From: Hyaloperonospora brassicae
Lineage: Eukaryota > Oomycota > Peronosporomycetes > Peronosporales > Peronosporaceae
Assembly (NCBI GenBank): GCA_947650285.1
Contig: CANTFL010000320.1
Coordinates: forward strand, 372,001-436,000
Reading direction: 5' to 3'
Length of the DNA: 64,000 bases
Shown: one piece after another, positions 28,211 to 61,276 of the stretch
Layout: each line of letters begins with the position of its first letter
Position numbering within the stretch: position 1 is the stretch's first letter
The notes under the pieces: generated by a model
The model's database searches: none
Seen by the model: only the letters and a program-made list of their open reading frames with translations
Told to the model about the DNA's origin: nothing
Program-made: the position numbers and the translations under genes

Positions 28211-28601
28211 TGTAACCGGGCACACCCTTGCGTAACTTAACGCAAGGGATTTGGGTGCCCCGACGGACGTACACGTGGCAAGCGAGGAAGCGTAGGTAGG
28301 GTAAAAGTAGAACTGTTATATTAATAGAATTAAGTCTTTAAACTACTGTCTCTTCGTTTGACTTAGTTCAACTATATTAATATAACTGGATGTATGGTGA
28401 CGTCTCGTCACCACTCATTGCGCGCGTCTTGCGGCGATTGGTGGGTTGATATCATCACGATATCAACCAATGAACAGAACCTTTGGTCGACCCTTCAATA
28501 TCACCACTTTGGTGATATTGTTCAAAGAATATTCAACTTCATATTCTTTATTGTCACTTTCCTTTAAGTGACAATTCCATGTAACGGGCTGCCCCGTTAC
28601 A
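28211..28601 (-). repeat. Copy 1 LTR (3' LTR)
   Basis: 391 bp, starting TGTAACCGGG and ending CCCCGTTACA. Followed on its right by a C-run (28607-28613), the polypurine tract in element orientation. It contains several perfect hairpins, including ATATCACCA-CTT-TGGTGATAT. Confidence 0.95.
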
Positions 28602-28734
28602 TCACCCCCCCCCTTAACTGATAGTCACCGTGTGAATATCGAAAATATGGCGGCCACCCGTTGGCCACCATTGGGACAGGGAGAACTTGTTGGGTCCGTT
28701 CCATTCACTTTCCACCCGACCTTGCATAGTCAAC

Positions 28735-30340: not shown

Positions 30341-33300
30341 GCATCCCCACGTTAAACGTAGGATGCGTGCGCATCTTACGTGGCAATTCGAGTGTGTATG
30401 CATTGCCCTTGCGATGCAACACTCGAAATGGCCCAATGTACTTCGGCTGTAGTTTACTACGGCCGACACTAGTGACTGCATGTCCAGGTAAGTTTACCGT
30501 AGACAGTAGTACTAGGTCGTTAACCTTAAATGAAAGAACATTTTCTCTTCCATTCTTGTCTGCGTTCCATTTCTGACGGTCCATCGCATTTGCGATGGAG
30601 TCCTGAACGAAACGGACTAACGCTTCTCGAGTTAGCAGGAAGTTCTCTGCTGACTCTTTGTTTTGTCTTTCAGTGCGCTTCGTGCGCACTGCTAAGAGAT
30701 TGCTCTCTTCTTCAGCGAGGTTGTCTTCTTCCTCGCTGGAATAATCGTTGACGATGCTGAATATACCAGCATCGTCATCATCATCCAAGTCAATAATACC
30801 GTCACCGCTATTATTGAGATGATCTTCTTCATCGATGTCAAGTAGATCGACATCGGCATCATACGTGACGACGTTAACGTCGACACGTGATGAGCAAGAG
30901 CCAAAACGGTTTTTGCTCGAGCGAGTCCCTCCCCCCCTTATCCATGAGTCACACTCTAGAAGGGTGGGCACACGTGGATGGCGTAGGCTATTCACGTAAA
31001 ACGGTGTATGCTGTGTTGAAGCATGCACCGAATTATTGATGGCGAATTCCACCATGGGTAGGAATTCGCTCCAACTCGGACACGAGTGGACATATCCTCG
31101 AAAAATCTCTTAGAGGACACGGTTCGCACGTTCCGTCTGACCATCTGTTTCGGGATGGTCAGAAGTGGACATCTTCAATCGTGTTCCGAGAGTACGGAAC
31201 ACGGTTTGACAAAATGCCGCCGTGAACCGAGGGTCACGGTCGGATACGAGTTCACGGGGTAACCCGTGGAGTCTAAAGACCGTGTATAGAAAGACACGAG
31301 CACAACCTTGAGCCTTGATCGACTCAGGGACAGCATCAAGATGGACCATCTTGCTGAATCGGTCAACAAACACAAGAATACCATTATTCTTGTGAGCGTC
31401 TTCGGGAAACCCGAAGACGAAGTCCATCGAAACGGACTACCAGCACTCTGTCGGAACAGGCAGAGGCTGCAATGGCGCACGTGATGAAGGACTAGGCTTC
31501 ACCCGTTGACAAACCTCGCAAGCACGTATGTACTTGCGAACAAACTGATACTGGCGTGGCCAGTAAAAGTCACGACTTACCGTGAGGTAAGCCTTTTCCC
31601 TTCCACGATGGCCGCTTGTTGGGGCATCGTGACACTCATACATGATGCGCAAACGCAAATCATGATGAGCGGGTACGACGACACGAGGCGTGTCGTCGGC
31701 AACAGCTGTATAGTACAGCAATTCGCTGCGTGTACTATACCGATCCGATGAGGATCGGTACAAAGCCGGTAAATCCCTCATGGATTTACTGGATGGATTC
31801 ACCAGATGATCGATCAATCGCAGAAGATCCTTATCTTCCGCGTATGCCTTTCGTACGTCGTCAAGTAAACTTGACGACGGGACACTGACTGACAGTGTCG
31901 CAACAGTGGGCTTATCCTCACTGTTGGATTGTGCGTCCGGCTCGAAATCGGGCCGGCGCGAAAGCGCATCAGCGACGACATTGAGTCGTCCCGGTTTATA
32001 CTCCACGGAGAAGCTATACTCCGCGAAGAAAGACAGCCACCTCGACATCCTTTGCGAGAGGTGTGGGCTGTTTACGGCCGTGCGTAATGACGCGTGGTCC
32101 GTGTAGACGACAAACGGTCTATCTCCCAAGAGATAGACGCGAAACTTAGCCAGTGCGTACTTCATGGCAAGGAGTTCCTTGTCATGCACTGGGTAATTGC
32201 GCTCAGCTGCTTGCAGCTGACGCGACTAATAACAGATGACGCGCTCCGCGCCATCTGCATCGAACTGCATTAACGCACAGCCGATTGCGAAATCGCTGGC
32301 GTCACAGACCACATGAAATGGTCTTTCCTGATCTGCAATCGCCAAGATCGGCGATTGCATCAAGCTTTGCTTGATACCTTCAAAGGAACGCTGGCACTCA
32401 GCGTTCCATGACCACTTGACATTTTTCTTGAGCAAGCAAGAAAGATGAACAGTCATCTCGGCGTAGTTGCGCGAGTACTTGTGCAAGTACGCCGCTAGAC
32501 CAAGGAACTTCCTTAGTCCCTTGACATCGACTGGCACTAGCCAGTCGGTGATCTCCTTGATCTTTTCGGGATCAGGGCGTACGCCGTGTTTACCCACAAT
32601 GCAACCAAGAAGCGGTATTTCACTAGCCGCGAATATACACTTCTTGAGGTTGGCGTACAACTTAAACTTGCGCATAAGTTGAAGAACCTGACGAACGTGA
32701 GTTCTGTGAGCTTCAACGTCCGTCTTTCCGTCCATAGCCCGGCTATGGACGAACACATCGTCGAAGTAACTCGGTGCGAAGTCTCGCACCGGTCTCAACA
32801 GATTTGTGACACATCTGTTGAATGTTTCAGGGGCATTGCTCAGCCCCTGTGGCATCACTAGCCACTCCCACAGCATCCCGCTGGGGGTACTCACTGCCGT
32901 GAACGGGATGTCCCGTTCACGCATCAGGATGTGATAGAATCCATCCATCAGATCCATGGACGAAAAGATGGTACTCTTTGACATACCATCTATGATGACG
33001 TCCTTCCTCGGTATCGGCGTCTGAGCCGGTACCGTTGCAGCATTCAACTTGTTGAATGCGTGCACTATCCGCCACCCTCCTGTGGCCTTTCGCACACAGA
33101 AGGTCGGAGAGCTGTGAGGGGATGTTGATTCCCTCACATGGCCCGCTGCTAAGCGATCGGCAAAGAACTTGTCGATCGCTAGTACTTGTTCACGAGGCAG
33201 TGGCCACTGCTTCATGACACAGTACTTCGAGCCCGGTTTGAGCTCGATCTCGTGTCGAGTGCCTTTGTCCTTAGGCAACTCGCAAGGTACGGATTCAGGG

Positions 33301-34556
33301 AACACATCCTTGAATTCGATCAAATCCTTATACAAAGGATTTGCCTGAAGTGACTCCCAGGATTGGGACGCGTATCGCTCAATCCGAGTCTTCTCATCGA
33401 GGACACTTTCGTCCATCGATGAGCTGCTGAGAACCCGTTCGTTCTCAGCAAATACTGCGGCCGACCAAATATCGGCCACATACTCATCCTCCGTGACGAG
33501 TATGCAGATCTGCTTGACTTTGCCACTACGCAGATCACGCAAGAACCGTTTCGGTTCTAGCGTTGGCAACTGAGTTATCTCCGAAGTCAACTTCGGAGGC
33601 ACAATCAGATCAAGCGTATAAGCGCCTACGCTTGATCCGTCATTAACCAAGATGTTCAACGTCTCGGTTTCTTCCTGGGAACTTGCTTCCACAGGTTGCT
33701 GAGGGCCTAATCCCTCAGCAAGCGACTCTTGAGGAATTCCTTCCTCAAGTACGTGGGTACTTATTCCCTCGACGTCTTCCGACTGTGGCTGTGCAACCAC
33801 AGTCAGGCACCGATCCTCTACGGTCGACTCTCCAGTCGACCTAGGATTTCCATGTTGCCCCTTGGGGGCAACAGGTTTCTTTCTTCTAAGATGCTGCCCG
33901 CTAGGCATGCATCCATGTCCCGGTCCACTCGACTTATTCGAGTGGTGGACCTTCAGCGCAGCCTATACTTCTGTACAGCCGCCGGGAGCTTGCTCCACAG
34001 TGTAGTGATCAACTACGCTGTGATCTTGTGCAGTCATGCTAACGACCGTACCGCAAGTGAGGCCATCGCACTCACTAGCAGAACATCCACCCGCTTGTGG
34101 ACGCTCCAAGATGTTCATCAGATGGCCATCTGATGAACAAGCAGCAGGCATCTTCACGGATCGATGCTGCCAGATCACCCTTGACTCGTACTTTCTGAGC
34201 CAAGGTAATCCCAGGATGACATCAAATTTGTCATCCAGATCCAGTACGATGAAGTCATCATCGTACTGTTCGCCCTCTAACGTGTAGTGGATTCCTACTA
34301 CACGTTTCTCAACGGTTATCGATGCGCCTGTTGCAAGGCGCACCGTCATCCTTGTGAGGGGAATGTCGCGCTCAACTAACTTGAGCCTACGACCCTCTAG
34401 TGACTGGCGACGAACAAAGTTGTTCGACGCCCCACAGTCTACTAGGGCACGAAGCGACAAATCATTTGTCGCTTCCAACTTCAAGGTGATGAGCGAAACG
34501 TCACCACCAGGTGCAGAGACACACAATGATTGTGTATCTGGAGCAACTTTCGTCAA
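29714..34556 (-). pseudogene. pol: Inner family pol, copy 1
   Basis: Protease, RT, RNase H, integrase and chromodomain are in order. Protease active site: ALVDCGASNNFV (DCGA instead of the common DTGA). RT active site: SYFDDVFVHS. The RNase H frame starts after an in-frame TAG at 32226-32228. Integrase has an HHCC finger (CHDAPTSGHRG, CEVCQRV) and core Asp, Asp and Glu (SMDFVFGFP, VSDRDPRF, TDGQTERAN). Stops: TAG at 33963-33965 (a Gln codon in copies 2 and 3), TAG 32226-32228, TAG 31437-31439, and one in the integrase at about 31107-31109. The chromodomain region is frameshifted after [15 protein letters not shown]. Inactive. Confidence 0.9.
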
Positions 34557-34606
34557 GAGATTTGCAAATTCTCTTGAGGTTGCTGGATCAGTAGGGCGCT
34601 CCGCTC

Positions 34607-35760
34607 CTACTGATCCCGACCATTTTTTGATGGTCCGTCTCGCTGTTGTGGCTTCGCAACAGCGCTGGACCCACGCCCATTGCCCTTTCTGGCGAATGGT
34701 CGTCCATTTCGCTCAGTACTGTTTGGTACTGGGCGTGGAGCACTACACTCATATGCGTAGTGCCCTAACTTCTGACAGCGATTGCACCTCTGCAATCTCT
34801 TGTTGTTCGAAGAGCGAGGTCTCTCGCTCTCAACATAGCAGAGGTCCATTGGTTCTGGACCTCCGATCTCTTGTCGTCTCGGTGGACGGTAAGAGTTTGA
34901 GCTAGCATGAGCCTGTCTCATGCGAAAGTCTTCCTGTTCCGCGGCTGATATCGCTTCTTCAAGCGTATTCAGCTCAAGGCGGAACAGATGGCTCCTGACG
35001 GGCCCTTCTGCGAGCCCTTGCATGAACACCGTAATCAACGTGTGTTCATGGACTGGGTTAGCAGTTATACTACTCGCAAGGAGTCGTATATGTTGTGCGT
35101 AAGCGTGCACATCACGCTTACCCTGCTTGAGTTTCAGGAGCTCTGAACGAGCCCTGAACTCAGCCCGTGGCGGCTCAAACGTTTGTCTGAGCCGGGACTT
35201 GAAGTCATCTAGCGACCTAAACACATTTGGGTCGCTACTCTCGAGCCCCAGGGACCAAGTTTTGGCACACCCTGCGAAGTGGGTCTGAGCAAATGTGAGT
35301 TTCATTTGCTCATCTTCGACGCGACGAGCCCTTAGGGCTCTGTCGAGTTCGACAAACCACAGTAACAGGGAGTCTTCCGGGACCCCACTGTACTTGGAGA
35401 TGTCAACTTTCATGACCTCGGGACGACGCGCATGCGCCGTCCCGCCCACAGCAGCATGGAATTGCTGCTGTCTCAACAGCTCCGTCTGTTGAGCACCGAG
35501 TTCTCTCAACTGCTCGGCCTGTTGAGAGCCTTGCTGGTGAAGCAAGGCTACTTTCTCCCTCTCGAGAGCAAGTTCATTCTGAATGAACTTGGCAATAGCG
35601 GCATGTTGTTGGTCTCTGTCTAGAGACTCCAACATGGTGCTAACGACGAGTTCGCCTACAGTAGAACTCATTCGTTCTACCGCACCCCATTCGATGTCAC
35701 TCAAATGGGTAAACCCTTCACGCGTGGCGTGAAAGGTGTCTTCTTATCCAACATGAACAT
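34607..35760 (-). pseudogene. gag: Inner family gag, copy 1 (frameshift at start)
   Basis: Capsid-type Gag with a CCHC knuckle CNRCQKLGHYAYEC. Compared with copy 3, one base is missing about six codons after the ATG (35758-35760), so the rest reads from the correct frame only without an ATG. The body of about 365 codons is open. Confidence 0.85.
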
Positions 35761-35804
35761 GTTGGATGATGTGGTCCTTGGGAGGACTACAAAGTGCTAC
35801 CAGG

Positions 35805-36196
35805 TGTAACGGGGCACACCCTTGCGTAACTTAACGCAAGGGATTTGGGTGCCCCGACAGACGTACACGTGGCAAGCGAGGAAGCGTAGGTAGGGTAAAA
35901 GTAGAACTGTTATATTAATAGAATTAAGTCTTTAAACTACTGTCTCTTCGTTTGACTTAGTTTAACTATATCTAATATAACTGGATGTATGGTGACGTCT
36001 CGTCACCACTCATTGCGCGCGTCTTGCGGCGATTGGTGGGTTGATATCATCACGATATCAACCAATGAACAGACCCTTTGGTCGACCCTTCAATATCACC
36101 ACTTTGGTGATATTGTTTAAAGAATATCCATCTTTATATTCTTTATTGTCACTTTCTTTAAAGTGACAATTTCATGTAACGAGCTGCCCCGTTACA
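35805..36196 (-). repeat. Copy 1 LTR (5' LTR)
   Basis: 392 bp. In element orientation it is followed by CCTGGTAGCACTTTGTAG; TGGTAGCAC, two bases in, is the likely primer-binding site. Confidence 0.95.
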
Positions 36197-36201
36197 GTCT
36201 C

Positions 36202-39852: not shown

Positions 39853-40064
39853 TTCACGTAGTTGTCATGGCCGGTAGCTCGTCTTGACGAGTCTTTGTTC
39901 GTCGAGTCTTCCCTCGCAAGTCTTGACTCGTCAAGTCTTCTCTCGTCCAGGTTTAACCCGTCGAGCCTTTAGGTGATATATTTGAGCAATTCAGTCTTTT
40001 TCTTTCTTGTACCTCGTGCAAAATGGACGCAGTCGCTTACTCCTACATCTCTGCCTGCTTTTAA

Positions 40065-41387: not shown

Positions 41388-41779
41388 TGTAACGGGGCAG
41401 CCCGTTACATGAAATTGTCACTTTAAGGAAAGTGACAATAAAGAATATAAAGATGGATATTCTTTAAAACAATATCACCAAAGTGGTGATATTGAAGGGT
41501 CGACCAAAGGGTCTGTTCATTGGTTGATATCGTGATGATATCAACCCACCAATCGCCGCAAGACGCGCGCAATGAGTGGTGACGAGACGTCACCATACAT
41601 GCAGTTATATTAGTATAATTGAATTAAGTCAAACGAAGAGACAGTAGTTTAAAGACTTAATTCTATTAATATAACAGTTCTACTTTTACCCTACCTACGC
41701 TTCCTCGCTTGCCACGTGTACGTCTGTCGGGGCACTCAAAACCCTTGCGTTAAGTTACGCAAGGGTGTGCCCCGTTACA
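41388..41779 (+). repeat. Copy 2 LTR (5' LTR)
   Basis: 392 bp, TGTAACGGGGCAGCCCG to GTGCCCCGTTACA, followed by CCTGGTAGCAC. Confidence 0.95.
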
Positions 41780-41823
41780 CCTGGTAGCACTTTGTAGTCC
41801 TTCCAAGGACCACATCATCCAAC

Positions 41824-42977
41824 ATGAACATGTTGGATGAAGAAGACACCTTTCACGCCACGCGTGAAGGGTTTACCCATTTGAGTGACATCGAATGGGG
41901 TGCGGTAGAACGAATGAGTTCTACCGCAGGCGAACTGTCGTCAGCACCATGTTGGAGTCTCTAGACAGAGACCAACAACATGCCGCTATCGCCAAGTTCA
42001 TTCAGAATGAACTTGCTCTCGAGAGGGAGAAAGTAGCCTTGCTTCACCAGCAAGGCTCTCAACAGGCCGAGCAGTTGAGAGAACTCGGTGCTCAACAGAC
42101 AGAGCTGTTGAGACAGCAGCAATTCCATGCTGCTGTGGGCGGGACGGCGCATGCGCGTCGTCCCGAAGTCATGAAAGTCGACATCTCCAAGTACAGTGGA
42201 GTCCCGGAGGACTCCCTGTTACTATGGTTTGTCGAACTCGACAGAGCCCTAAGGGCTCGTCGCGTCGAAGATGAGCAAATGAAACTCACATTTGCTCAGA
42301 CCCACTTGGCAGGGTGTGCCAAAACTTGGTCCCTGGGGCTCGAGAGTAGCGACCCAAATGTGTTTAGGTCGCTAGATGACTTCAAGTCCCGGCTCAGACA
42401 AACGTTTGAGCCGCCACGGGCTGAGTTCAGGGCTCGTTCAGAGCTCCTGAAACTCAAGCAGGGTAAGCGTGATGTGCACGCTTACGCACAACATATACGA
42501 CTCCATGCGAGTAGTATAACTGCTAACCCATTACATGAACACACGTTGATTACGGTGTTCATGCAAGGGCTCGCAGAAGGGCCCGTCAGGAGCCATCTGT
42601 TCCGCCTTGAGCTGAATACGCTTGAAGAAGCGATATCAGCCGCGGAACAGGAAGACTTTAGCATGAGACAGGATCATGCTAGCTCAGACTCTTATCGTCC
42701 ACCGAGACGACAAGAGATCGGAGGTCCAGCACCAATGGACCTCTGCTATGTTGAGAGCGAGAGACCTCGCTCTTCGAACAACAAGAGATTGCAGAGGTGC
42801 AATCGCTGTCAGAAGTTAGGGCACTACGCATATGAGTGTAGTGCTCCACGCCCAGTACCAAACAGTACTGAGCGAAATGGACGACCATTCGCCAGAAAGG
42901 GCAATGGGCGTGGGTCCAGCGCTGTTGCGAAGCCACAACAGCGAGACGGACCATCAAAAAATGGTCGGGATCAGTAG
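41824..42977 (+). pseudogene. gag: Inner family gag, copy 2 (one frameshift)
   Basis: From ATG 41824; a net one-base loss near 41,937-41,945 shifts the frame, after which 360 codons are open to TAG 42975-42977. The CCHC knuckle CNRCQKLGHYAYEC and the basic tail FARKGNGRGSS are intact. Confidence 0.85.
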
Positions 42978-42999
42978 GAGCGGAGCGCCCTACTGATCC
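42956..42999 (+). promoter_or_regulatory. -1 ribosomal frameshift signal at the gag/pol junction
   Basis: A slippery heptamer A AAA AAT (42956-42962) is in the gag frame. It is followed by a 5-base spacer and a perfect 11-bp stem: 42968-42978 with 42989-42999, loop of 10. The gag stop TAG lies inside the stem, and the pol frame is open through it in the -1 frame. The same heptamer is present in copies 1 and 3; copy 3 has one A-to-G change in the stem that keeps a G-U pair in RNA. Confidence 0.75.
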
Positions 43000-45900
43000 A
43001 GCAACCTCAAGAGAATTTGCAAATCTCTTGACGAAAGTTGCTCCAGATACACAATCATTGTGTGTCTCTGCACCTGGTGATGACGTTTCGCTCATCACCT
43101 TGAAGTTGGAAGCGACAAATGATTTGTCGCTTCGTGCCCTAGTAGACTGTGGGGCGTCGAACAACTTTGTTCGTCGCCAGTCACTAGAGGGTCGTAGGCT
43201 CAAGTTAGTTGAGCGCGACATTCCCCTCACAAGGATGACGGTGCGCCTTGCAACAGGCGCATCGATTACCGTTGAGAAACGTGTAGTAGGAATCCACTAC
43301 ACGTTAGAGGGCGAACAGTACGATGATGACTTCATCGTACTGGATCTGGATGACAAATTTGATGTCATCCTGGGATTACCTTGGCTCAGAAAGTACGAGT
43401 CAAGGGTGAGCTGGCAGCATCGATCCGTGAAGATGCCTGCTGCTTGTTCATCAGATGGCCATCTGATGAACATCTTGGAGCGTCCACAAGCGGGTGGATG
43501 TTCTGCTAGTGAGTGCGATGGCCTCACTTGCGGTACGGTCGTTAGCATGACTGCACAAGATCACAGTGTATTTGATCACTACACTGTGGAGCAAGCTCCC
43601 GGCGGCTGTACAGATGTACAGGCTGCGCCGAAGGTCCACCACTCGAATAAGTCGAGTGGACCGGGACATGAATGCATGCCTAGCGGGCAGCATCTTAGAA
43701 GAAAGAAACCTGTTGCCTCCAAGGGGCAACATGGAAATCCTAGGTCGACTGGAGAGTCGACCGTAGAGGATCGGTGCCTGACTGTGGTTGCACAGCCACA
43801 GTCGGAAGACGTCGAGGGAATAAGTACCCACGTACTTGAGGAAGGAATTCCTCAAGAGTCGCTTGCTGAGGGATTAGGCCCTCAGCAACCTGTGGAAGCA
43901 AGTTCCCAGGAAGAAACCGAGACGTTGAACATCTTGGTTAATGACGGATCAAGCGTAGGCGCTTATACGCTTGATCTGATTGTGCCTCCGAAGTTAACTT
44001 CGGAGATAACTCAGTTGCCAACGCTAGAACCGAAACGGTTCTTGCGTGATCTGCGTAGTGGCAAAGTCAAGCAGATCTGCATACTCGTCACGGAGGATGA
44101 GTATGTGGCCGATATTTGGTCGGCCGCAGTATTTGCTGAGAACGAACGGGTTCTCAGCAGCTCATCGATGGACGAAAGTGTCCTCGATGAGAAGACTCGG
44201 ATTGAGCGATACACGTCTCAATCCTGGGAGTCACTTCAGGCAAATCCTTTGTATAAGGATTTGATCGAATTCAGGGATGTGTTCCCAGAATCCGTACCTT
44301 GCGAGTTGCCTAAAGACAAAGGCTTTCGACACGAGATCGAGCTCAAACCGAGCTCGAAGTACTGTGCCATGAAGCAGTGGCCACTGCCTCGTGAACAAGT
44401 ACTAGCGATCGACAAGTTCTTTGCCGATCGCTTAGCAGAGGGCCATGTGAGGGAATCAAGATCTCCTCACAGCTCTCCGACCTTCTGTGTGCGAAAGGCC
44501 ACAGGAGGGTGGAGGATAGTGCACGCATTCAACAAATTGAATGCTGCAACGGTACCGGCTCAGACGCCGATACCGAGGAAGGACGTAATCCTAGATGGTA
44601 TGTCAAAGAGTACCATCTTTTCGTCCATGGATCTGATGGATGGATTCTATCACATCCTGATGCGTGAACGGGACATCCCGTTCACGGCAGTGAGTACCCC
44701 CAGCGGGATGCTGTGGGAGTGGCTAGTGATGCCACAGGGGCTGAGCAATGCCCCTGAAACATTCAACAGATGTGTCACAAATCTGTTGAGACCGGTGCGA
44801 GACTTCGCACCGAGTTACTTCGACGATGTGTTCGTCCATAGCCGGGCTATGGACGGAAAGACGGACGTTGAAGCTCACAGAACTCACGTTCGTCAGGTTC
44901 TTCAACTTATGCGCAAGTATAAGTTGTACGCCAACCTCAAGAAGTGTATATTCGCGGCTAGTGAAATACCGCTTCTTGGTTGCATCGTGGGTAAACACGG
45001 CGTACGCCCTGATCCCGAAAAGATCAAGGAGATCACCGACTGGCTAGTGCCAGTCGATGTCAAGGGACTAAGGAAGTTCCTTGGTCTAGCGGCGTACTTG
45101 CACAAGTACTCGCGCAACTACGCCGAGATGACTGTTCATCTTTCTTGCTTGCTCAAGAAAAATGTCAAGTGGTCATGGAACGCTGAGTGCCAGCGTTCCT
45201 TTGAAGGTATCAAGCAAAGCTTGATGCAATCGCCGATCTTGGCGATTGCAGATCAGGAAAGACCATTTCATGTGGTCTGTGACGCCAGCGATTTCGCAAT
45301 CGGCTGTGCGTTAATGCAGTTCGATGCAGATGGCGCGGAGCGCGTCATCTGTTATTAGTCGCGTCAGCTGCAAGCAGCTGAGCGCAATTACCCAGTGCAT
45401 GACAAGGAACTCCTTGCCATGAAGTACGCACTGGCTAAGTTTCGCGTCTATCTCTTGGGAGATAGACCGTTTGTCGTCTACACGGACCACGCGTCATTAC
45501 GCACGGCCGTAAACAGCCCACACCTCTCGCAAAGGATGTCGAGGTGGCTGTCTTTCTTCGCGGAGTATAGCTTCTCCGTGGAGTATAAACCGGGACGACT
45601 CAATGTCGTCGCTGATGCGCTTTCGCGCCGGCCCGATTTCGAGCCGGACGCACAATCCAACAGTGAGGATAAGCCCACTGTTGCGACACTGTCAGTCAGT
45701 GTCCCGTCGTCAAGTTTACTTGACGACGTACGAAAGGCATACGCGGAAGATAAGGATCTTCTGCGATTGATCGATCATCTGGTGAATCCATCCAGTAAAT
45801 CCATGAGGGATTTACCGGCTTTGTAACGATCCTCATCGGATCGGTATAGTACACGCAACGAATTGCTGTACTATACAGCTGTTGCCGACGACACGCCTCG

Positions 45901-47874
45901 TGTCGTCGTACCCGCTCATCATGATTTGCGTTTGCGCATCATGTATGAGTGTCACGATGCCCCAACAAGCGGCCATCGTGGAAGGGAAAAGGCTTACCTC
46001 ACGGTAAGTCGTGACTTTTACTGGCCACGCCAGTATCAGTTTGTTGGCAAGTACATACGTGCTTGCGAGGTTTGTCAACGGGTGAAGCCTAGTCCTTCAT
46101 CACGTGCGCCATTGCAGCCTCTGCCTGTTCCGACAGAGTGCTGGTAGTCCGTTTCGATGGACTTCGTCTTCGGGTTTCCCGAAGACGCTCACAAGAATAA
46201 TGGTATTCTTGTGTTTGTTGACCGATTCAGCAAGATGGTCCATCTTGATGCTGTCCCTGAGTCGATCAAGGCTCAAGGTTGTGCTCGTGTCTTTCTAGAC
46301 ACGGTCTTTAGACTCCACGGGTTACCCCGTGAGCTCGTATCCGACCGTGACCCTCGGTTCACGGCGGCATTTTGTCAAACCGTGTTCCGTACTCTCGGAA
46401 CACGATTAAAGATGTCTACTTCTGACCATCCCGAAACAGATGGTCAGACGGAACGTGCGAACCGTGTCCTCGAAGAGATCCTTCGAGGATATGTCCACTC
46501 GTGTCCGAGTTGGAGCGAATTCCTACCCATGGTGGAATTCGCCATCAATAATTCGGTGCATGCTTCCACACAGCACACACCGTTTTACGTGAATAGCCTA
46601 CGCCATCCACGTGTGCCTACCCTTCTATAGTGTGAATCTTGGATAAGGGGGGGGAGGGGCTCGCTCGAGCAAAAACCGTTCTGGCTCTTGCTCATCACGT
46701 GTCGACGCTAACGTCGTCACGTATGATGCCGATGTCGATCAAATCGACATCGATGAAGAAGATCACCTCAATAATAGCGATGACGTTATTATTGACTTGG
46801 ATGATGATGACGATGCTGGTATATTCAGCATCGTCAACGATTATGTCAGCGAGGAAGAAGACAACCTCGCTGAAGAAGAGAGCAATCTCTTAGCAGTGCG
46901 CACGAAGCGCACTGAAAGACAAAACAAAGAGTCAGCAGAGAACTTCCTGCTAACTCGAGAAGCGTTAGTCCGTTTCGTTCAGGACTCCATCACAAATGCG
47001 ATGGACCGTCAGAAATGGACCGCAGACAAGAATGGAAGAGAAAATGTTCTTTCATTTAAGGTTAACGACCTAGTACTACTGTCTACGGTAAACTTACCTG
47101 GACATGCAGTCACTAGTGTCGGCCGTAGTAAACTACAGCCGAAGTACATTGGGCCATTTCGAGTGTTGCATCGCAAGGGCAATGCATACACACTCGAATT
47201 GCCACGTAAGATGCGCACGCATCCTACGTTTAACGTGGGGATGCTCAGGCCGTACTGTCAGTACGAGCCTTCTTCTTCCGATGTAAATAGCCCCCACGTT
47301 CAAGAACATCCATCAAGTTCTTGCGTTCGCGCTCCAGACGATCCGTCTGGTCGCGCAGATATGATACCTCGGAACTCAACCGAGATATCTCCCCCAAGCT
47401 GTCGCCAGCTCGTTGAATATGGAGCGGACATCCCGCTCGACCTGAAGCTGCGCTGTGGCATAATCGGCGCGATCCCTCGCCCGATCAGCCTCGTGATCCT
47501 TGCGGTTTTTCCGCACGGTATCAGTCAAAGCGTAGCGCCGGTCGCGCTCGTGCTTCAAGTCATCTCGCAATTCATCGATTGCGCGATCCATCTCTTAAGG
47601 GTCGAGATGGTGAGCCGAATCATCTGGAGGAGGTCTTTTCTCCTCCACCACATCCTTTGGTGGATGCTCACGGTGATCAACGCTTTCTAGTGGAGCGTAT
47701 CTTGAATCACCGTGACGATTCAGGATCAAGGACGATCTACCTCGTCCAGTGGGGGGGGGGTATCCACCCTCTTGGAACAGCTGGGAGCCCCGCTCTCAGC
47801 TGTTGATGGATGTTGAAGGTCTCGTCCGCCAGTATGACGAGACCCATCCGATGAGTCCTGTGGCCCATCGGTAA
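42978..47874 (+). pseudogene. pol: Inner family pol, copy 2
   Basis: Protease and RT are open from the gag overlap to TAG 45356-45358 (at least 776 codons), with DCGA protease site and FDD RT site. RNase H follows in the same frame after the stop (KELLAMKYALAKFRVYLLGD, YTDHASLRTA). Further stops are TAA 45824-45826, TAG 46145-46147 before the integrase core, and TAG 46628-46630 after it. Integrase finger and D, D, E residues are present. The SH3-like tail reads KLQPKYIGPFRVLHRKGNAY. The chromodomain (RFLVERILNHRDDSG) is shifted by a ten-G run at 47751-47760; copy 3 has eight. Confidence 0.9.
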
Positions 47875-48852
47875 ACACGCGCCCTAGGCGCTTGTAGACG
47901 GATTGCAAGTTTGCAATCGCGTCACGCATCTCCGCCGAGATATGTGCCCTTCCCCAGGGCGAACTTAGGTAATACACATCCCTATGTGCACGCTACGAGT
48001 TGTCAACACAACTCGCACAAGGGTCTCCCCATGTGAGGCAAGGAATGCCTGCCTCACTCGATAAACAGTGCAATCGGTACCTAGCACCGGTTGGCGTTCG
48101 CCGTTCGAACCTGAGGCGTGTCGCCTCAAGTTTCTTGAGCCACCCTTCTCGTCCGAAATTCTTTACGTTTGGGACGAACGCGTTCCACGCAGCCAAAAGC
48201 GATGATCTGTCACGCTTTTCGTTGCTGTTGTACCATCAATGTATAAGGAAGACATCGAGATAAAAATCTTCTTCAGCGCGAAAGTTCTTCGCGCTGGAAC
48301 TCAAGCCGTGAAGCTCAGTCGCATCGAATAAGAGTATTCGATGGTGTTGGCGTGTCTCTTGAGACAAGCTATTGATGAGCCGTTCGGGCAAACGCCACGG
48401 CTTCGACTCATCACGCTTCACAGTGGTACCCTTGTCGGTACCACGGCTCCCAGATTGACGACGGCTCGCGCCATCGTCATCACGCTCGTGCGAAGACTCA
48501 CGAGCCGGTGGTGGTGAGGAATAGAATTCCTCACCACCCTGATCATCGTCATCACTGCCGAACAGACTGTGACGCAAATCACGAGTCCATTTGTTCGGCA
48601 GTAGTCTTGGCGAACACTGAGGCGTCGCCGGTGATCGAGACGCCTCTGGTACATTGCCCGAGTCAGACACGTCTGACTCGCCAGAGTAGATGACCTCTAC
48701 GTCGAGGTCATCATGCGCACGCGGTGAGGTGCCGCGTGCACCTGCAGCACCTGTTGCTGCAGGCGAAGAAGGAGCAGCAGACGACGAATCGTCTGCCGCA
48801 GAGACTGGCACAGCAGCGGGCTGTGCGTGTCTTGAGTCACCCCGCGTAGAAA
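47245..48852 (-). pseudogene. Antisense frame of the inner family, copy 2
   Basis: Counterpart of the copy 1 antisense frame. The ATG has become ATT (48850-48852), one stop falls after the DVFLIH block and one after CVDNS, so it is broken. The C-terminal coiled coil (47376-47591 and on to 47245) is preserved. Confidence 0.6.
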
Positions 48853-48982
48853 TGTTGACTATGCAAGGTCAGTGGGAAGTGAATGAAACGGACCCAACAA
48901 GTGCTCCCTGTCCCAATGGTGCCCAACGGATGGCCGCCATATTTTCGATATTCACACGGTAACTATCCGTTAAGGGGGGTGA

Positions 48983-49371
48983 TGTAACGGGGCAGCCCGT
49001 TACATGGAATTGTCACTTAAAGGAAAGTGACCATAAAGAATATGAAGTTGAATATTCTTTGAACAATATCACCAAAGTGGTGATATTGAAGGGTCGACCA
49101 AAGAGTCTGCTCATTGGTTGATATCTTGATGATATCAACCCACCAATCGCCGCAAGACGCGCGCAATGAGTGGTGACGAGACGTCACCATACATCCAGTT
49201 ATATTAGCATAATTAAGTTAAGTCAAACAGAGAGACAGTAGTTTAAAGACTTAATTCTATTAATATAACAGTTCTGCTTTTACCTTACCTACGCTTCCTC
49301 GCTTGCCTTTTGTACGTCTGTCGGGGCACCGATACCCTTGCGTTAAGTTACGCAAGGGTGTGCCTGTTACA
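48983..49371 (+). repeat. Copy 2 LTR (3' LTR)
   Basis: 389 bp, preceded by the polypurine tract TAAGGGGGGTGA (48971-48982). The last bases are TGCCTGTTACA, lacking two bases of the usual end. Confidence 0.95.
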
Positions 49372-50708: not shown

Positions 50709-51099
50709 TGTAACGGGGCACACCCTTGCGTAACTTAACGCAAGGGTTTTGGGTGCCCCGACAGACGTACACGTGGCAAGCGAGGAAGCGTAGGTAAGGT
50801 AAAAGCAGAACTGTTATATTAATAGAATTAAGTCTTTAAACTACTGTCTCTCTGTTTGACTTAATTCAATTATACTAATATAACTGGATGTATGGTGACG
50901 TCTCGTCACCACTCATTGCGCGCGTCTTGCGGCGATTGGTGGGTTGATATCATCAAGATATCAACCAATGAGCAGACTCTTTGGTCGACTCTTCAATATC
51001 ACCACTTTGGTGATATTGTTCAAAGAATATTCAACTTCATATTCTTTATGGTCACTTTCCTTTAAGTGACAATTCCATGTAACGGGCTGCCCCGTTACA
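50709..51099 (-). repeat. Copy 3 LTR (3' LTR)
   Basis: 391 bp, TGTAACGGGGCACACCC to CCCCGTTACA, followed on its right by a C-run, the polypurine tract in element orientation. Confidence 0.95.
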
Positions 51100-51229
51100 T
51101 CACCCCCCCTTAACGGATAGTTACCGTGTGAATATCGAAAATATGGCGGCCATCCGTTGGGCACCATTGGGACAGGGAGCACTTGTTGGGTCCGTTTCAT
51201 TCACTTCCCACTGACCTTGCATAGTCAAC

Positions 51230-52836
51230 ATTTCTACGCGGGGTGACTCAAGACACGCACAGCCCGCTGCTGTGCCAGCCTCTGCGGCAGACGATTCGTC
51301 GTCTGCTGCTCCTTCTTCGCCTGCAGCAACAGGTGCTGCAGGTGCACGCGGCACCTCACCGCGTGCGCATGATGACCTCGACGTAGAGGTCATCTACTCT
51401 GGCGAGTCAGACGTGTCTGACTCGGGCAATGTACCAGAGGCGTCTCGATCACCGGCGACGCCTCAGTGTTCGCCAAGACTACTGCCGAACAAATGGACTC
51501 GTGATTTGCGTCACAGTCTGTTCGGCAGTGATGACGATGATCAGGGTGGTGAGGAATTCTATTCCTCACCACCACCGGCTCGTGAGTCTTCGCACGAGCG
51601 TGATGACGATGGCGCGAGCCGTCGTCAATCTGGGAGCCGTGGTACCGACAAGGGTACCACTGTGAAGCGTGATGAGTCGAAGCCGTGGCGTTTGCCCGAA
51701 CGGCTCATCAATAGCTTGTCTCAAGAGACACACCAACACCATCGAATACTCTTATTCGATGCGACTGAGCTTCACGGCTTGAGTTCCAGCGCGAAGAACT
51801 TTCGCGCTGAAGAAGATTTTTATCTCGATGTCTTCCTTATACATTGATGGTACAACAGCAACGAAAAGCGTGACAGATCATCGCTTTTGGCTGCGTGGAA
51901 CGCGTTCGTCCCAAACGTAAAGAATTTCGGACGAGAAGGGTGGCTCAAGAAACTTGAGGCGACACGCCTCAGGTTCGAACGGCGAACGCCAACCGGTGCT
52001 AGGTACCGATTGCACTGTTTATCGAGTGAGGCAGGCATTCCTTGCCTCACATGGGGAGACCCTTGTGCGAGTTGTGTTGACAACTCGTAGCGTGCACATA
52101 GGGATGTGTATTACCTAAGTTCGCCCTGGGGAAGGGCACATATCTCGGCGGAGATGCGTGACGCGATTGCAAACTTGCAATCCGTCTACAAGCGCCTAGG
52201 GCGCGTGTTTACCGATGGGCCACAGGACTCATCGGATGGGTCTCGTCATACTGGCGGACGAGACCTTCAACATCCATCAACAGCTGAGAGCGGGGCTCCC
52301 AGCTGTTCCAAGAGGGTGGATACCCCCCCCACTGGACGAGGTAGATCGTCCTTGATCCTGAATCGTCACGGTGATTCAAGATACGCTCCACTAGAAAGCG
52401 TTGATCACCGTGAGCATCCACCAAAGGATGTGGTGGAGGAGAAAAGACCTCCTCCAGATGATTCGGCTCACCATCTCGACCCTTAAGAGATGGATCGCGC
52501 AATCGATGAATTGCGAGATGACTTGAAGCACGAGCGCGACCGGCGCTACGCTTTGACTGATACCGTGCGGAAAAACCGCAAGGATCACGAGGCTGATCGG
52601 GCGAGGGATCGCGCCGATTATGCCACAGCGCAGCTTCAGGTCGAGCGGGATGTCCGCTCCATATTCAACGAGCTGGCGACAGCTTGGGGGAGATATCTCG
52701 GTTGAGTTCCGAGGTATCATATCTGCGCGACCAGACGGATCGTCTGGAGCGCGAACGCAAGAACTTGATGGATGTTCTTGAACGTGGGGGCTATTTACAT
52801 CGGAAGAAGAAGGCTCGTACTGACAGTACGGCCTGA
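51230..52836 (+). pseudogene. Antisense frame of the inner family, copy 3
   Basis: Same protein as in copy 1 but with start ATG changed to ATT (51230-51232), TGA at 51845-51847 and TAG at 52088-52090. The last part is open from 52106 to 52486, where copy 1 is frameshifted, and is followed by the coiled coil (52490-52705, then in a shifted frame to TGA 52834-52836). It overlaps the sense chromodomain frame. Confidence 0.6.
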
Positions 52837-55800
52837 GCATCCCCACGTTAAACGTAGGATGCGTGCGCATCTTACGTGGCAATTCGAGTGTGTATGCATT
52901 GCCCTTGCGATGCAACACTCGAAATGGCCCAATGTACTTCGGCTGTAGTTTACTACGGCCGACACTAGTGACTGCATGTCCAGGTAAGTTTACCGTAGAC
53001 AGTAGTACTAGGTCGTTAACCTTAAATGAAAGAACATTTTCTCTTCCATTCTTGTCTGCGGTCCATTTCTGACGGTCCATCGCATTTGTGATGGAGTCCT
53101 GAACGAAACGGACTAACGCTTCTCGAGTTAGCAGGAAGTTCTCTGCTGACTCTTTGTTTTGTCTTTCAGTGCGCTTCGTGCGCACTGCTAAGAGATTGCT
53201 CTCTTCTTCAGCGAGGTTGTCTTCTTCCTCGCTGACATAATCGCTGACGATGCTGAATATACCAGCATCGTCATCATCATCCAAGTCAATAATAACGTCA
53301 TCGCTATTATTGAGGTGATCTTCTTCATCGATGTCAATTTGATCGACATCGGCATCATACGTGACGACGTTAACGTCGACACGTGATGAGCAAGAGCCAG
53401 AACGGTTTTTGCTCGAGCGAGCCCCTCCCCCCTTATCCAAGATTCACACTATAGAAGGGTAGGCACACGTGGATGGCGTAGGCTATTCACGTAAAACGGT
53501 GTGTGCTGTGTGGAAGCATGCACCGAATTATTGATGGCGAATTCCACCATGGGTAGGAATTCGCTCCAACTCGGACACGAGTGGACATATCCTCGAAGGA
53601 TCTCTTCGAGGACACGGTTCGCACGTTCCGTCTGACCATCTGTTTCGGGATGGTCAGAAGTAGACATCTTTAATCGTGTTCCGAGAGTACGGAACACGGT
53701 TTGACAAAATGCCGCCGTGAACCGAGGGTCACGGTCGGATACGAGCTCACGGGGTAACCCGTGGAGTCTAAAGACCGTGTCTAGAAAGACACGAGCACAA
53801 CCTTGAGCCTTGATCGACTCAGGGACAGCATCAAGATGGACCATCTTGCTGAATCGGTCAACAAACACAAGAATACCATTATTCTTGTGAGCGTCTTCGG
53901 GAAACCCGAAGACGAAGTCCATCGAAACGGACTACCAGCACTCTGTCGGAACAGGCAGAGGCTGCAATGGCGCACGTGATGAAGGACTAGGCTTCACCCG
54001 TTGACAAACCTCGCAAGCACGTATGTACTTGCCAACAAACTGATACTGGCGTGGCCAGTAAAAGTCACGACTTACCGTGAGGTAAGCCTTTTCCCTTCCA
54101 CGATGGCCGCTTGTTGGGGCATCGTGACACTCATACATGATGCGCAAACGCAAATCATGATGAGCGGGTACGACGACACGAGGCGTGTCGTCGGCAACAG
54201 CTGTATAGTACAGCAATTCGTTGCGTGTACTATACCGATCCGATGAGGATCGTTACAAAGCCGGTAAATCCCTCATGGATTTACTGGATGGATTCACCAG
54301 ATGATCGATCAATCGCAGAAGATCCTTATCTTCCGCGTATGCCTTTCGTACGTCGTCAAGTAAACTTGACGACGGGACACTGACTGACAGTGTCGCAACA
54401 GTGGGCTTATCCTCACTGTTGGATTGTGCGTCCGGCTCGAAATCGGGCCGGCGCGAAAGCGCATCAGCGACGACATTGAGTCGTCCCGGTTTATACTCCA
54501 CGGAGAAGCTATACTCCGCGAAGAAAGACAGCCACCTCGACATCCTTTGCGAGAGGTGTGGGCTGTTTACGGCCGTGCGTAATGACGCGTGGTCCGTGTA
54601 GACGACAAACGGTCTATCTCCCAAGAGATAGACGCGAAACTTAGCCAGTGCGTACTTCATAGCAAGGAGTTCCTTGTCATGCACTGGGTAATTGCGCTCA
54701 GCTGCTTGCAGCTGACGCGACTAATAACAGATGACGCGCTCCGCGCCATCTGCATCGAACTGCATTAACGCACAGCCGATTGCGAAATCGCTGGCGTCAC
54801 AGACCACATGAAATGGTCTGTCCTGATCTGCAATCGCCAAGATCGGCGATTGCATCAAGCTTTGCTTGATACCTTCAAAGGAACGCTGGCACTCAGCGTT
54901 CCATGACCACTTGACATTTTTCTTGAGCAAGCAAGAAAGATGAACAGTCATCTCGGCGTAGTTGCGCGAGTACTTGTGCAAGTACGCCGCTAGACCAAGG
55001 AACTTCCTTAGTCCCTTGACATCGACTGGCACTAGCCAGTCGGTGATCTCCTTGATCTTTTCGGGATCAGGGCGTACGCCGTGTTTACCCACGATGCAAC
55101 CAAGAAGTGGTATTTCACTAGCCGCGAATATACACTTCTTGAGGTTGGCGTACAACTTATACTTGCGCATAAGTTGAAGAACCTGACGAACGTGAGTTCT
55201 GTGAGCTTCAACGTCCGTCTTTCCGTCCATAGCCCGGCTATGGACGAACACATCGTCGAAGTAACTCGGTGCGAAGTCTCGCACCGGTCTCAACAGATTT
55301 GTGACACATCTGTTGAATGTTGCAGGGGCATTGCTCAGCCCCTGTGGCATCACTAGCCACTCCCACAGCATCCCGCTGGGGGTACTCACTGCCGTGAACG
55401 GGATGTCCCGTTCACGCATCAGGATCTGATAGAATCCATCCATCAGATCCATGGACGAAAAGATGGTACTCTTTGACATACCATCTATGATTACGTCCTT
55501 CCTCGGTATCGGCGTCTGAGCCGGTACCGTTGCAGCATTCAATTTGTTGAATGCGTGCACTATCCTCCACCCTCCTGTGGCCTTTCGCACACAGAAGGTC
55601 GGAGAGCTGTGAGGAGATCTTGATTCCCTCACATGGCCCTCTGCTAAGCGATCGGCAAAGAACTTGTCGATCGCTAGTACTTGTTCACGAGGCAGTGGCC
55701 ACTGCTTCATGGCACAGTACTTCGAGCTCGGTTTGAGCTCGATCTCGTGTCGAAAGCCTTTGTCTTTAGGCAACTCGCAAGGTACGGATTCAGGGAACAC

Positions 55801-57051
55801 ATCCCTGAATTCGATCAAATCCTTATACAAAGGATTTGCCTGAAGTGACTCCCAGGATTGAGACGTGTATCGCTCAATCCGAGTCTTCTCATCGAGGACA
55901 CTTTCGTCCATCGATGAGCTGCTGAGAACCCGTTCGTTCTCAGCAAATACTGCGGCCGACCAAATATCGGCCACATACTCATCCTCCGTGACGAGTATGC
56001 AGATCTGCTTGACTTTGCCACTACGCAGATCACGCAAGAACCGTTTCGGTTCTAGCGTTGGCAACTGAGTTATCTCCGAAGTTAACTTCGGAGGCACAAT
56101 CAGATCAAGCGTATAAGCGCCTACGCTTGATCCGTCATTAACCAAGATGTTCAACGTCTCGGTTTCTTCCTGGGAACTTGCTTCCACAGGTTGCTGAGGG
56201 CCTAATCCCTCAGCAAGCGACTCTTGAGGAATTCCTTCCTCAAGTACGTGGGTACTTATTCCCTCGACGTCTTCCGACTGTGGCTGTGCAACCACAGTCA
56301 GGCACCGATCCTCTACGGTCGACTCTCCAGTCGACCTAGGATTTCCATGTTGCCCCTTGGAGGCAACAGGTTTCTTTCTTCTAAGATGCTGCCCGCTAGG
56401 CATGCATTCATGTCCCGGTCCACTCGACTTATTCGAGTGGTGGACCTTCGGCGCAGCCTGTACATCTGTACAGCCGCCGGGAGCTTGCTCCACAGTGTAG
56501 TGATCAAATACACTGTGATCTTGTGCAGTCGTGCTAACGACCGTACCGCAAGTGAGGCCATCGCACTCACTAGCAGAACATCCACACGCTTGTGGACGCT
56601 CCAAGATGTTCATCAGATGGCCATCTGATGAACAAGCAGCAGGCATCTTCACGGATCGATGCTGCCAGCTCACCCTTGACTCGTACTTTCTGAGCCAAGG
56701 TAATCCCAGGATGACATCAAATTTGTCATCCAGATCCAGTACGATGAAGTCATCATCGTACTGTTCGCCCTCTAACGTGTAGTGGATTCCTACTACACGT
56801 TTCTCAACGGTAATCGATGCGCCTGTTGCAAGGCGCACCGTCATCCTTGTGAGGGGAATGTCGCGCTCAACTAACTTGAGCCTACGACCCTCTAGTGACT
56901 GGCGACGAACAAAGTTGTTCGACGCCCCACAGTCTACTAGGGCACGAAGCGACAAATCATTTGTCGCTTCCAACTTCAAGGTGATGAGCGAAACGTCATC
57001 ACCAGGTGCAGAGACACACAATGATTGTGTATCTGGAGCAACTTTCGTCAA
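52209..57051 (-). pseudogene. pol: Inner family pol, copy 3
   Basis: Protease-RT open for 776 codons (54721-57051, ending at TAG 54721-54723), RNase H 54253-54684, integrase 53449-54216, SH3-like tail within 52391-53440, chromodomain 52209-52502. The chromodomain is readable here: [17 protein letters not shown], then [18 protein letters not shown]. The four in-frame stops match copy 2. All catalytic residues seen in copy 2 are present, so apart from the stops it is close to complete. Confidence 0.9.
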
Positions 57052-57101
57052 GAGATTTGCAAATTCTCTTGAGGTTGCTGGATCAGTAGGGCGCTCCGCC
57101 C

Positions 57102-58256
57102 CTACTGACCCCGACCATTTTTTGATGATCCGTCTCGCTGTTGTGGCTTCGCAACAGCGCTGGACCCACGCCCATTGCCCTTTCTGGCAAATGGTCGTCC
57201 ATTTCGCTCAGTACTGTTTGGTACTGGGCGTGGAGCACTACACTCATATGCGTAGTGCCCTAACTTCTGACAGCGATTGCACCTCTGCAATCGCTTGTTG
57301 TTCGAAGCGCAAGGTCTCTCGCTCTCAACATAGCAGAGGTCCATTGGTGCTGGACCTCCGATCTCTTGTCGTCTCGGTGGGCGGTAAGAGTTTGAGCTAG
57401 CATGAGCCTGTCTCATGCTAAAGTCTTCCTGTTCCGCGGCTGATATCGCTTCTTCAAGCGTATTCAGCTCAAGGCGGAACAGATGGCTCCTGACGGGCCC
57501 TTCTGCGAGCCCTTGCATGAACACCGTAATCAACGTGTGTTCATGTAATGGGTTAGCAGTTATACTACTCGCAAGGAGTCGTATATGTTGTGCGTAAGCG
57601 TGCACATCACGCTTACCCTGCTTGAGTTTCAGGAGCTCTGAACGAGCCCTGAACTCAGCCCGTGGCGGCTCAAACGTTTGTCTGAGCCGGGACTTGAAGT
57701 CATCTAGCGACCTAAACACATTTGGGTCGCTACTCTCGAGCCCCAGGGACCAAGTTTTGGCACACCCTGCCAAGTGGGTCTGAGCAAATGTGAGTTTCAT
57801 TTGCTCATCTTCGACGCGACGAGCCCTTAGGGCTCTGTCAAGTTCGACAAACCACAGTAACAGGGAGTCTTCCGGGACTCCACTGTACTTGGAGATGTCA
57901 ACTTTCATGACCTCGGGACGACGCGCATGCGCCGTCCCGCCCACAGCAGCATGGAATTGCTGCTGTCTCAACAGCTCCGTCTGTTGAGCACCGAGTTCTC
58001 TCAACTGCTCGGCCTGTTGAGAGTCTTGCTGGTGAAGCAAGGCTACTTTCTCCCTCTCGATAGCAAGTTCATTTTGAATGAACTTGGCGATAGCGGCATG
58101 TTGTTGGTCTCTGTCTAGAGACTCGAACATGGCGCTAATGGCGAGCTCGCATACGGTAGAACTCGTTCGTTCTACCGCACCCCATTCGATGTCACTCAAA
58201 TGGGTAAACCCTTCACGCGTGGCGTGAAAGGTGTCTTCTTCATTCAACATGTTCAT
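57102..58256 (-). CDS. gag: Inner family Gag, copy 3 (intact)
   Basis: An uninterrupted 384-residue Gag from ATG 58256 (MNMLNEEDTFHATREGF start). It has a coiled-coil N-terminal region rich in Gln (QQAEQLRELGAQQTELLRQQQ), a capsid core (YSGVPEDSLLLWFVELDRAL, FKSRLRQTFEPPRAEFRARS), a CCHC zinc knuckle CNRCQKLGHYAYEC near residue 335, and a basic, Gly/Arg-rich tail for RNA binding. The -1 slippery heptamer lies just before the stop. It is the only full-length gag of the three copies and could in principle supply Gag to the others; expression is not shown. Confidence 0.88.
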   Translation of the reverse strand: MNMLNEEDTFHATREGFTHLSDIEWGAVERTSSTVCELAISAMFESLDRDQQHAAIAKFIQNELAIEREKVALLHQQDSQQAEQLRELGAQQTELLRQQQFHAAVGGTAHARRPEVMKVDISKYSGVPEDSLLLWFVELDRALRARRVEDEQMKLTFAQTHLAGCAKTWSLGLESSDPNVFRSLDDFKSRLRQTFEPPRAEFRARSELLKLKQGKRDVHAYAQHIRLLASSITANPLHEHTLITVFMQGLAEGPVRSHLFRLELNTLEEAISAAEQEDFSMRQAHASSNSYRPPRRQEIGGPAPMDLCYVESERPCASNNKRLQRCNRCQKLGHYAYECSAPRPVPNSTERNGRPFARKGNGRGSSAVAKPQQRDGSSKNGRGQ

Positions 58257-58300
58257 GTTGGAAGTTGTGGTCCTTGGAAGGACTACAAAGTGCTACCAGG

Positions 58301-58691
58301 TGTAACGGGGCACACCCTTGCGTAACATAACGCAAGGGTTTTGGGTGCCCCGACAGACGTACACGTGGCAAGCGAGGAAGCGTAGGTAGGGTAAAAGTAG
58401 AACTGTTATATTAATAGAATTAAGTCTTTAAACTACTGTCTCTCTGTTTGACTTAATTCAATTATACTAATATAACTGCATGTATGGTGACGTCTCGTCA
58501 CCACTCATTGCGCGCGTCTTGCGGCGATTGGTGGGTTGATATCATCACGATATCAACCAATGAGCAGACTCTTTGGTCGACCCTTCAATATCACCACTTT
58601 GGTGATATTGTTTAAAGAATATTCAACTTCATATTCTTTATGGTCACTTTCCTTAAAGTGACAATTTCATGTAATGGGCTGCCCCGTTACA
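58301..58691 (-). repeat. Copy 3 LTR (5' LTR)
   Basis: 391 bp, followed in element orientation by CCTGGTAGCACTTTGTAG, the likely primer-binding region. Confidence 0.95.
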
Positions 58692-58696
58692 GTGAC

Positions 58697-60528: not shown

Positions 60529-60889
60529 CCGAGCAATCGCTCATCTACCATCGTCTTTTTCATTGGTAGTGGACGACTCTGGTTGATATTCCATTCGATT
60601 TATCCTTCCACACGTTTCATCGCCAGGCCTTCTTGTGTCTCCAACAAAAGCGAACAAGTAGTTCGCGTCGACTACTGGTTCCACTGGCTATGTCAGCCCA
60701 TTGTTTCCCGACACAGTCAAAGTCGGCGAGCCTTCTAATTTAAATGTCCTGGCGAATAGATGTGTGTGGGTTCTTCGGGCACAGTTGTTCGATCAATAGA
60801 TGACTTGAAGATCTTGGTGAGTCGCTCGAACTCCGTGAACAGTTCACACCTGCCATCGTCATGAACTTGTTTGCAGGATTTGATCACCC

Positions 60890-61270: not shown

Positions 61271-61276
61271 AGCATG

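Follow-up and report, generated by a model that had tools for sequence, protein, structure and literature searches.

Short perfect hairpins of family-specific size along chromovirus-type Ty3/gypsy elements of Hyaloperonospora brassicae

A stretch of 64,000 nucleotides from the oomycete Hyaloperonospora brassicae (contig CANTFL010000320.1, positions 372,001 to 436,000; hereafter the window) holds three copies of a Ty3/gypsy retrotransposon family, here called W, whose whole length, i.e. the long terminal repeats (LTRs), gag, pol and an antisense open reading frame (ORF), is covered with short Watson-Crick hairpins that have sharp boundaries. Two related families of the same genome, L44 and L064, carry hairpins of other sizes. 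Because the number and size of the hairpins are preserved and not the particular hairpins, we infer that selection at synonymous sites is likelier than a bias of copying. Judged from sequence comparison, we propose with a probability of about 45% that synonymous sites are selected for hairpins of a set size, and that a partner encoded by the element, perhaps Gag, would recognise them.

Stem density in the window copies

With a mechanical finder for non-overlapping perfect stems of at least 8 bp and loops of 0-10 nt, 86 stems were counted in copy 2, 86 in copy 3 and 80 in copy 1, the latter spanning positions 28225 to 36170, which amounts to about 10 stems per kb. Dinucleotide shuffles (n = 15 for each stretch) contained on average 1.5 stems for copy 2 (maximum 5), 1.2 for copy 3 (maximum 3) and 1.1 for positions 30000-36200 of copy 1 (maximum 2). 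Outside the three copies the window is near this shuffled background, with 3 stems in 1-22000, 2 in 22000-28200, none in 36300-41300 and 1 in 58700-64000. Controls of the same size in copy 2 gave 2 mirror repeats and 3 direct repeats, compared to the 86 inverted repeats. An earlier note on this DNA had listed 13 stems in copy 2, and all 13 arm pairs are indeed perfect reverse complements (Table 1); its estimate of one chance stem per 6 kb is about right, and its remark that by eye the pattern is missing from the host genes, Copia and the outer element agrees with the mechanical counts.

Codon-preserving shuffles (n = 100) were applied to a 1350-nt piece of the reverse transcriptase (RT) region. 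This piece holds 14-16 stems in each of three W copies, L009, L026 and L048, versus a mean of 0.3-0.5 in the shuffles, and 8 in a fourth copy (L066) versus a mean of 0.3. From this we conclude that the stem excess in the copies far exceeds chance and that codon-preserving shuffling removes the signal. The earlier note had staked its case on a density above that of such shuffles, which is what the counts in the RT piece show.

Hairpin sizes among the element families

The genomic loci compared here are the best-scoring candidates, and the copy numbers are lower bounds. The 30 W loci, which include the three window copies, carry 10.3-13.3 stems per kb (45-58 within 4350 nt), and nine further W relatives carry 7.3-13.3 stems per kb. 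In the sister group L44, whose RT region has 52-59% identity to that of W (44% in a single decayed copy), the density across 17 loci, two of them representing one place, is 1.3-6.4 stems per kb, and the 14 RT loci outside the clade contain 5 such stems in 51 kb. Among the families sampled, the hairpin tiling is limited to one chromovirus clade. W copy L026 includes two stretches of 185-190 nt (element-sense positions of about 2962-3153 and 4037-4223) that are stemless at a threshold of at least 7 bp and loops of up to 12 nt. Among the best 120 of 1472 protein relatives, those named by organism are all from oomycetes, the top one being from Peronospora matthiolae at 85%; relatives of the RT protein occur in this species as well as in Pythium oligandrum, Globisporangium and Phytophthora.

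The sizes of the hairpins were compared by counting maximal stems with loops of 3-10 nt by their exact length, in the elements and in shuffles. W has 28, 29 and 26 stems of exactly 8, 9 and 10 bp versus 0.5, 0.3 and 0.1 in shuffles, L44 has 38 stems of 8 bp versus 0.6, and L064 has 115 stems of 5 bp versus 30. Stem length peaks at 8-10 bp in W, 8 bp in L44 and 5 bp in L064, and loop length peaks at 4-6, 3-5 and 3 nt, respectively; among the 5-6 bp stems of L064 a loop of 3 nt occurs in 55 versus 4.7 in shuffles. Four control loci are close to their shuffles and slightly higher at 5-7 bp. Since L064 has few 8-bp stems but is saturated with stems of 5-6 bp (26.7 stems of at least 5 bp per kb versus 7.3 shuffled), we rejected it as a hairpin-poor outgroup; while the excess described in the earlier note holds at 8 bp and above, that very threshold hides a related family with mostly 5-bp stems.

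The boundaries of the stems are sharp, with complementarity near the expected 0.25 beyond the second outer pair, and the excess almost vanishes for loops above about 13 nt, which means that the hairpins are mainly local. The pair that closes the loop is pyrimidine-purine in 85 of 108 L064 hairpins (85:23), and its 5' base is G in 39 of 74 L44 hairpins. In L44 (locus L050) shorter stems are richer in G+C, the fractions being 0.73, 0.67 and 0.60 for 8, 9 and 10 bp versus 0.55 overall. We rejected a shared stem motif, as the stem sequences inspected differ and have only the closing-pair biases, in two families. Two further candidate correlates of the hairpins were likewise dismissed: the CCHC knuckle, which Pfam does not find in the L064 gag frame and whose motif is nevertheless present there, and the antisense ORF, which all three families possess.

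Upkeep of the stems and possible causes

In the 4350-nt span, each window copy keeps 38-41 of the 58 stems of L026 intact and has 15-19 in which a single pair is broken, in keeping with the observation in the earlier note that the copies spoil stems by single bases. Of the 514 stem pairs that occur in the window copies, 493 are retained by all three, 15 by two and 6 by one. In the RT piece, the homologous columns hold no stem common to W and L44. Of the 6 stems of L043, a member of the L44 group, 4 are shared with L044, which is 73% like it, and the shared pairs are mostly unchanged, 43 of 49 in comparison with the close relative L050, with one pair doubly changed.

We polarised the W alleles among the 30 copies by four relatives and compared them with random substitutions, which cause 206 gains and 1417 losses of pairing. 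Alleles present in at least 4 copies include 8 gains and 9 losses (p = 0.0006 versus this null), and private alleles include 8 gains and 49 losses (p = 0.69). Counted more coarsely and locally, the alleles in at least 4 copies make 19 improvements and 7 worsenings, versus 23 and 74 for private ones. That private alleles mostly lose pairing supports the suggestion, already made from the three copies, that perfect stems were ancestral and decayed later.

Two L064-type lineages with open frames, L064 and L080, share 90.2% identity, and third codon positions account for 105 of the 127 differences between them. L064 holds 31 stems, 21 of which are retained in L080, and L080 holds 30. When synonymous drift was simulated up to an equal distance (200 runs), means of 16.3 and 15.1 stems were left, with maxima of 27 and 22. 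Since 31 and 30 stems are kept where synonymous drift would about halve them, the number of stems is held as individual hairpins turn over. Stems decay in old insertions; between the two open-frame lineages they are kept up with turnover, mostly at third codon positions.

Under the explanation that we prefer, many interchangeable hairpins of family-specific geometry would be read by a putative partner encoded by the element, a part of the proposal of which we are less sure than of selection itself. A reader of this kind would most simply account for families of one host differing in hairpin size. The most likely candidate is Gag or its nucleocapsid during packaging, as a large number of interchangeable sites could serve in that process; the RT, acting on single-stranded intermediates, would be another. 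It is a doubtful extension of this proposal that each family may write its hairpin code genome-wide and co-evolve with its own reader, which would keep the genomes of related families apart.

Several points weigh against selected hairpins with a reader of their own. Selection would have to act on a very large number of small sites, which is a heavy demand, and the 4 gains and 15 losses of W alleles in 2-3 copies are no different from the null (p = 0.29). W has little or no closing-pair bias, and its arms have no overall G+C enrichment and a weaker length trend than those of L44. The upkeep test in L064 is based on one 1.3-kb piece, and the comparison covers three families of one genome. Finally, neither W nor L44 prefers G.U over A.C, whereas RNA-binding usually tolerates G.U.

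The last point is based on several counts. Variants within W stems include 10 G.T and 13 A.C among shared and 21 G.T and 15 A.C among private ones, and allowing one or the other mismatch in L026 yields 74 (G.T) and 78 (A.C) stems of at least 8 bp, i.e. about equal lengthening, as is also the case in L44. Single-mismatch hairpins in W (N = 8) comprise 58 G.T, 49 A.C and 66 others, counted in overlapping and thus non-independent windows. G.T outnumbers A.C by 9 to 2 in one W comparison against a decayed copy and by 30 to 14 in the L064 comparisons, the latter being summed over six overlapping, non-independent directions. The same test on true RNA genomes gave 24 G.T and 22 A.C for the phage MS2 and 28 and 16 for the phage Qbeta; because MS2 is also without a G.U preference, the test is weak and its power limited.

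Folding energies of the RT piece were compared with codon shuffles on both strands, giving z values of -14 to -19 (sense) and -14 to -22 (antisense) for four W copies and of -0.7 to -3.9 for L44 relatives, which together with L064 lie 0.7-4.7 below the shuffles. When 300-nt windows are set against dinucleotide shuffles, z averages -10 in W (L026), compared to -5.4 in MS2 and -4.6 in Qbeta. L026 has 13.3 perfect stems of at least 8 bp per kb, MS2 0.8 and Qbeta 1.4, which makes the stem density of the elements roughly tenfold that of these RNA phages.

The strand symmetry of these values favours an explanation in which local folding of both strands keeps sense and antisense transcripts, or an RNA and its copies, from pairing up as long duplexes, which host silencing would cut. 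Antisense folding is as extreme as sense folding, the missing G.U preference of W is expected if both strands must pair, the hairpins are local as judged from the loss of excess past loops of about 13 nt, and an antisense ORF overlaps pol in all three families. A comparable role has been suggested in PMC6913131, according to which strong local structure may help RNA copied by Qbeta replicase to avoid double strands. However, distinct and sharp sizes in families of one host are left unexplained and the hairpins extend far beyond the antisense ORF, and we regard this cause as unlikely, albeit as the strongest of the alternatives.

Next in rank, and likewise improbable in our view, is fold-back template switching during reverse transcription, by which one arm would be copied onto the other and stems perfected without any benefit. 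Hairpins in RNA genes can arise and persist through template switching, as described in PMC8794818, and such switching would both make and mend perfect stems such as those seen here. The pairing in W, which is Watson-Crick and about strand-symmetric, the confinement of the trait to one clade and hence to one type of RT, and the stronger improvement of stems by shared than by private alleles are all consistent with it. On the other hand, template switching predicts the overwriting of one arm, of which there is no excess: among stems with at least 2 changes whose counterpart in the compared copy is no stem (n = 22, including 2 repeats), 4 are changed in one arm and 18 in both, versus about 6 one-arm cases by chance, a test of limited power. 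Moreover, no reverse-complement patches were recognised by eye in 39 clustered changes among the 30 W copies, the rate at which private changes gain stems does not exceed that of random ones (8 of 57 versus 206 of 1623), and narrow family-specific size peaks would be unexpected from a copying bias. Template switching, which the earlier note had named as a possible cause, is weakened by these results.

We consider it quite improbable that a stably folded genomic RNA is selected as such, as in some RNA viruses. The folding of W, deeper than that of MS2 and Qbeta, speaks for it, as do the G.T counts of the small L064 comparison and the loops of W, in which the genomic sense strand is enriched in A (0.33 versus 0.25; A/T asymmetry p = 0.008-0.02), an asymmetry that is non-significant in L44 and in the antisense-ORF region of W alone. 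A sense-strand component of the folding is therefore possible, and as MS2, a true RNA genome, likewise lacks a G.U preference by this test, such a lack is compatible with this reading. Nevertheless, folding of the sense RNA alone is not an obvious account because G.U is not favoured in W or L44, which differ in this from Qbeta; besides, the stems have sharp ends, perfect pairing and narrow sizes, whereas those of MS2 and Qbeta are mostly imperfect, and the family-specific sizes are unexplained. The folded RNA genome suggested in the earlier note is possible, given that the folding of W is extreme, on both strands, although the G.U counts, from a weak test, do not favour it. Chance, composition or an assembly artefact has next to no probability, since dinucleotide and codon shuffles both lose the signal, mirror and direct repeats show no excess and all 30 W loci examined, 27 of them outside the window, have the stems.

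Known systems and element anatomy

With their LTRs, a gag with a CCHC motif, protease, RT and a tail of SH3_Tf2-1 and chromodomain, the elements resemble chromoviruses (Metaviridae), from which they differ in the hairpin tiling of the whole element and the overlapping antisense ORF; we know of no description of a chromovirus with both. MS2 and Qbeta (Leviviricetes) are similar in that their coding RNA folds far below shuffles on both strands, but different in the scarcity of perfect stems. Genome-scale ordered RNA structure occurs in some RNA viruses and is spread over the genome as it is here, whereas the elements have discrete perfect stems of set size and are DNA-integrated retroelements. 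Examples of dispersed packaging signals tolerate bulges and G.U. Such signals, as many interchangeable hairpins, would suit a turnover at constant number; however, they bind the capsid, whereas the partner of the hairpins here is a putative one. Dispersed signals have been proposed for single-stranded RNA viruses (PMC6281560). Searches among open-licence papers yielded no account of set-size perfect hairpins over a whole LTR retrotransposon.

Genome-wide structure in coding sequence is already known from RNA viruses. The hairpin signal is strong enough here to be read from DNA alone, and the pattern points to an unrecognised role of hairpins in the life cycle of the element. Families with stems of 5, 8 and 8-10 bp in one host offer a comparison for what counts the base pairs, be it Gag, the reverse transcriptase or host silencing.

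All three window copies extend from LTR to LTR (Table 1). The LTR ends are TGTAAC/GTTACA in copies 2 and 3, and copy 3 is flanked by a 5-bp target-site duplication, GTGAC, at 50704-50708 and 58692-58696; none was seen at copy 2, whose LTRs are only 93.1% alike. The pol frame of copy 2 terminates early. Pfam matches a Chromo domain in the L44 and L064 families; in W the chromodomain was recognised by eye in the pol tail of genomic copy L074, with no Pfam match in the window frame. As judged from Gag, protease, RT, SH3_Tf2-1 and chromodomain, the elements are classified as chromovirus-type Ty3/gypsy. A regulatory RNA was rejected as an explanation, as Rfam gave no match at gathering score in 41300-49400 and no tRNA gene was found in the window, and no relative was found among viral contigs.

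Table 1 Features of the window and stems listed in copy 2.
Feature	Position	Strand	Basis
Copy 2, LTR element (W family), 86 stems	41388..49371	+	stem scan; LTR pair 93.1% alike
5' LTR of copy 2, hairpins present throughout	41388..41779	+	
3' LTR of copy 2	48983..49371	+	
gag frame of copy 2	41889..42974	+	Pfam Retrotrans_gag, Ty3_capsid; CCHC knuckle motif, Pfam knuckle matches below cut-off
pol frame of copy 2: protease, reverse transcriptase, RNase H start	42872..45355	+	Pfam RVP_2, RVT_1, RT_RNaseH_2
pol tail of copy 2, SH3_Tf2-1 domain	46647..47687	+	Pfam
Antisense ORF region of copy 2	47248..48868	-	matches 539-aa antisense ORF of L074
Copy 3, LTR element, 86 stems	50709..58691	-	LTRs 97.4% alike
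Copy 1, LTR element, 80 stems	28211..36196	-	LTRs 28211-28601 and 35805-36196
407-aa open antisense frame of copy 1	28636..29859	+	
12-bp stem, loop 1	43109..43133		arms checked perfect
10-bp stem, loop 8	43278..43305		arms checked perfect
11-bp stem, loop 5	43316..43342		arms checked perfect
8-bp stem, loop 7	43348..43370		arms checked perfect
28-nt perfect palindrome	43445..43472		checked
9-bp stem, loop 9	43562..43588		arms checked perfect
8-bp stem, loop 5	43639..43659		arms checked perfect
8-bp stem, loop 4	43743..43762		arms checked perfect
8-bp stem, loop 8	43780..43803		arms checked perfect
9-bp stem, loop 4	43835..43856		arms checked perfect
10-bp stem, loop 6	43863..43888		arms checked perfect
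11-bp stem, loop 8	43947..43976		arms checked perfect
20-nt perfect palindrome	43986..44005		checked

The antisense ORFs of the three families are long and overlap the end of pol tail to tail; they are located at L074:1890-3506 (+), L071:350-1744 (-) and L072:2945-4360 (+) and encode 539, 465 and 472 amino acids (aa), respectively. For the W antisense ORF at least 12 matches were found, two in Peronospora matthiolae and ten in ENA sequences, and BLASTP detected no clear similarity to the antisense ORFs of L44 and L064 (E = 0.52 and 0.019). The product of the L44 antisense ORF is RS-rich.

The LTR of the genomic W copy L074 (392 nt) has 6 stems, the first of which begins one base outside the LTR, and in the 3' part of this copy the stems span the LTR, with zero in the 1381 nt past it. 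In the same copy, about 620 nt are open on both strands and still hold 6 stems, and the region covered by the antisense ORF only (L074:1890-2883) has about 17 stems per kb, the highest density of the regions measured there.

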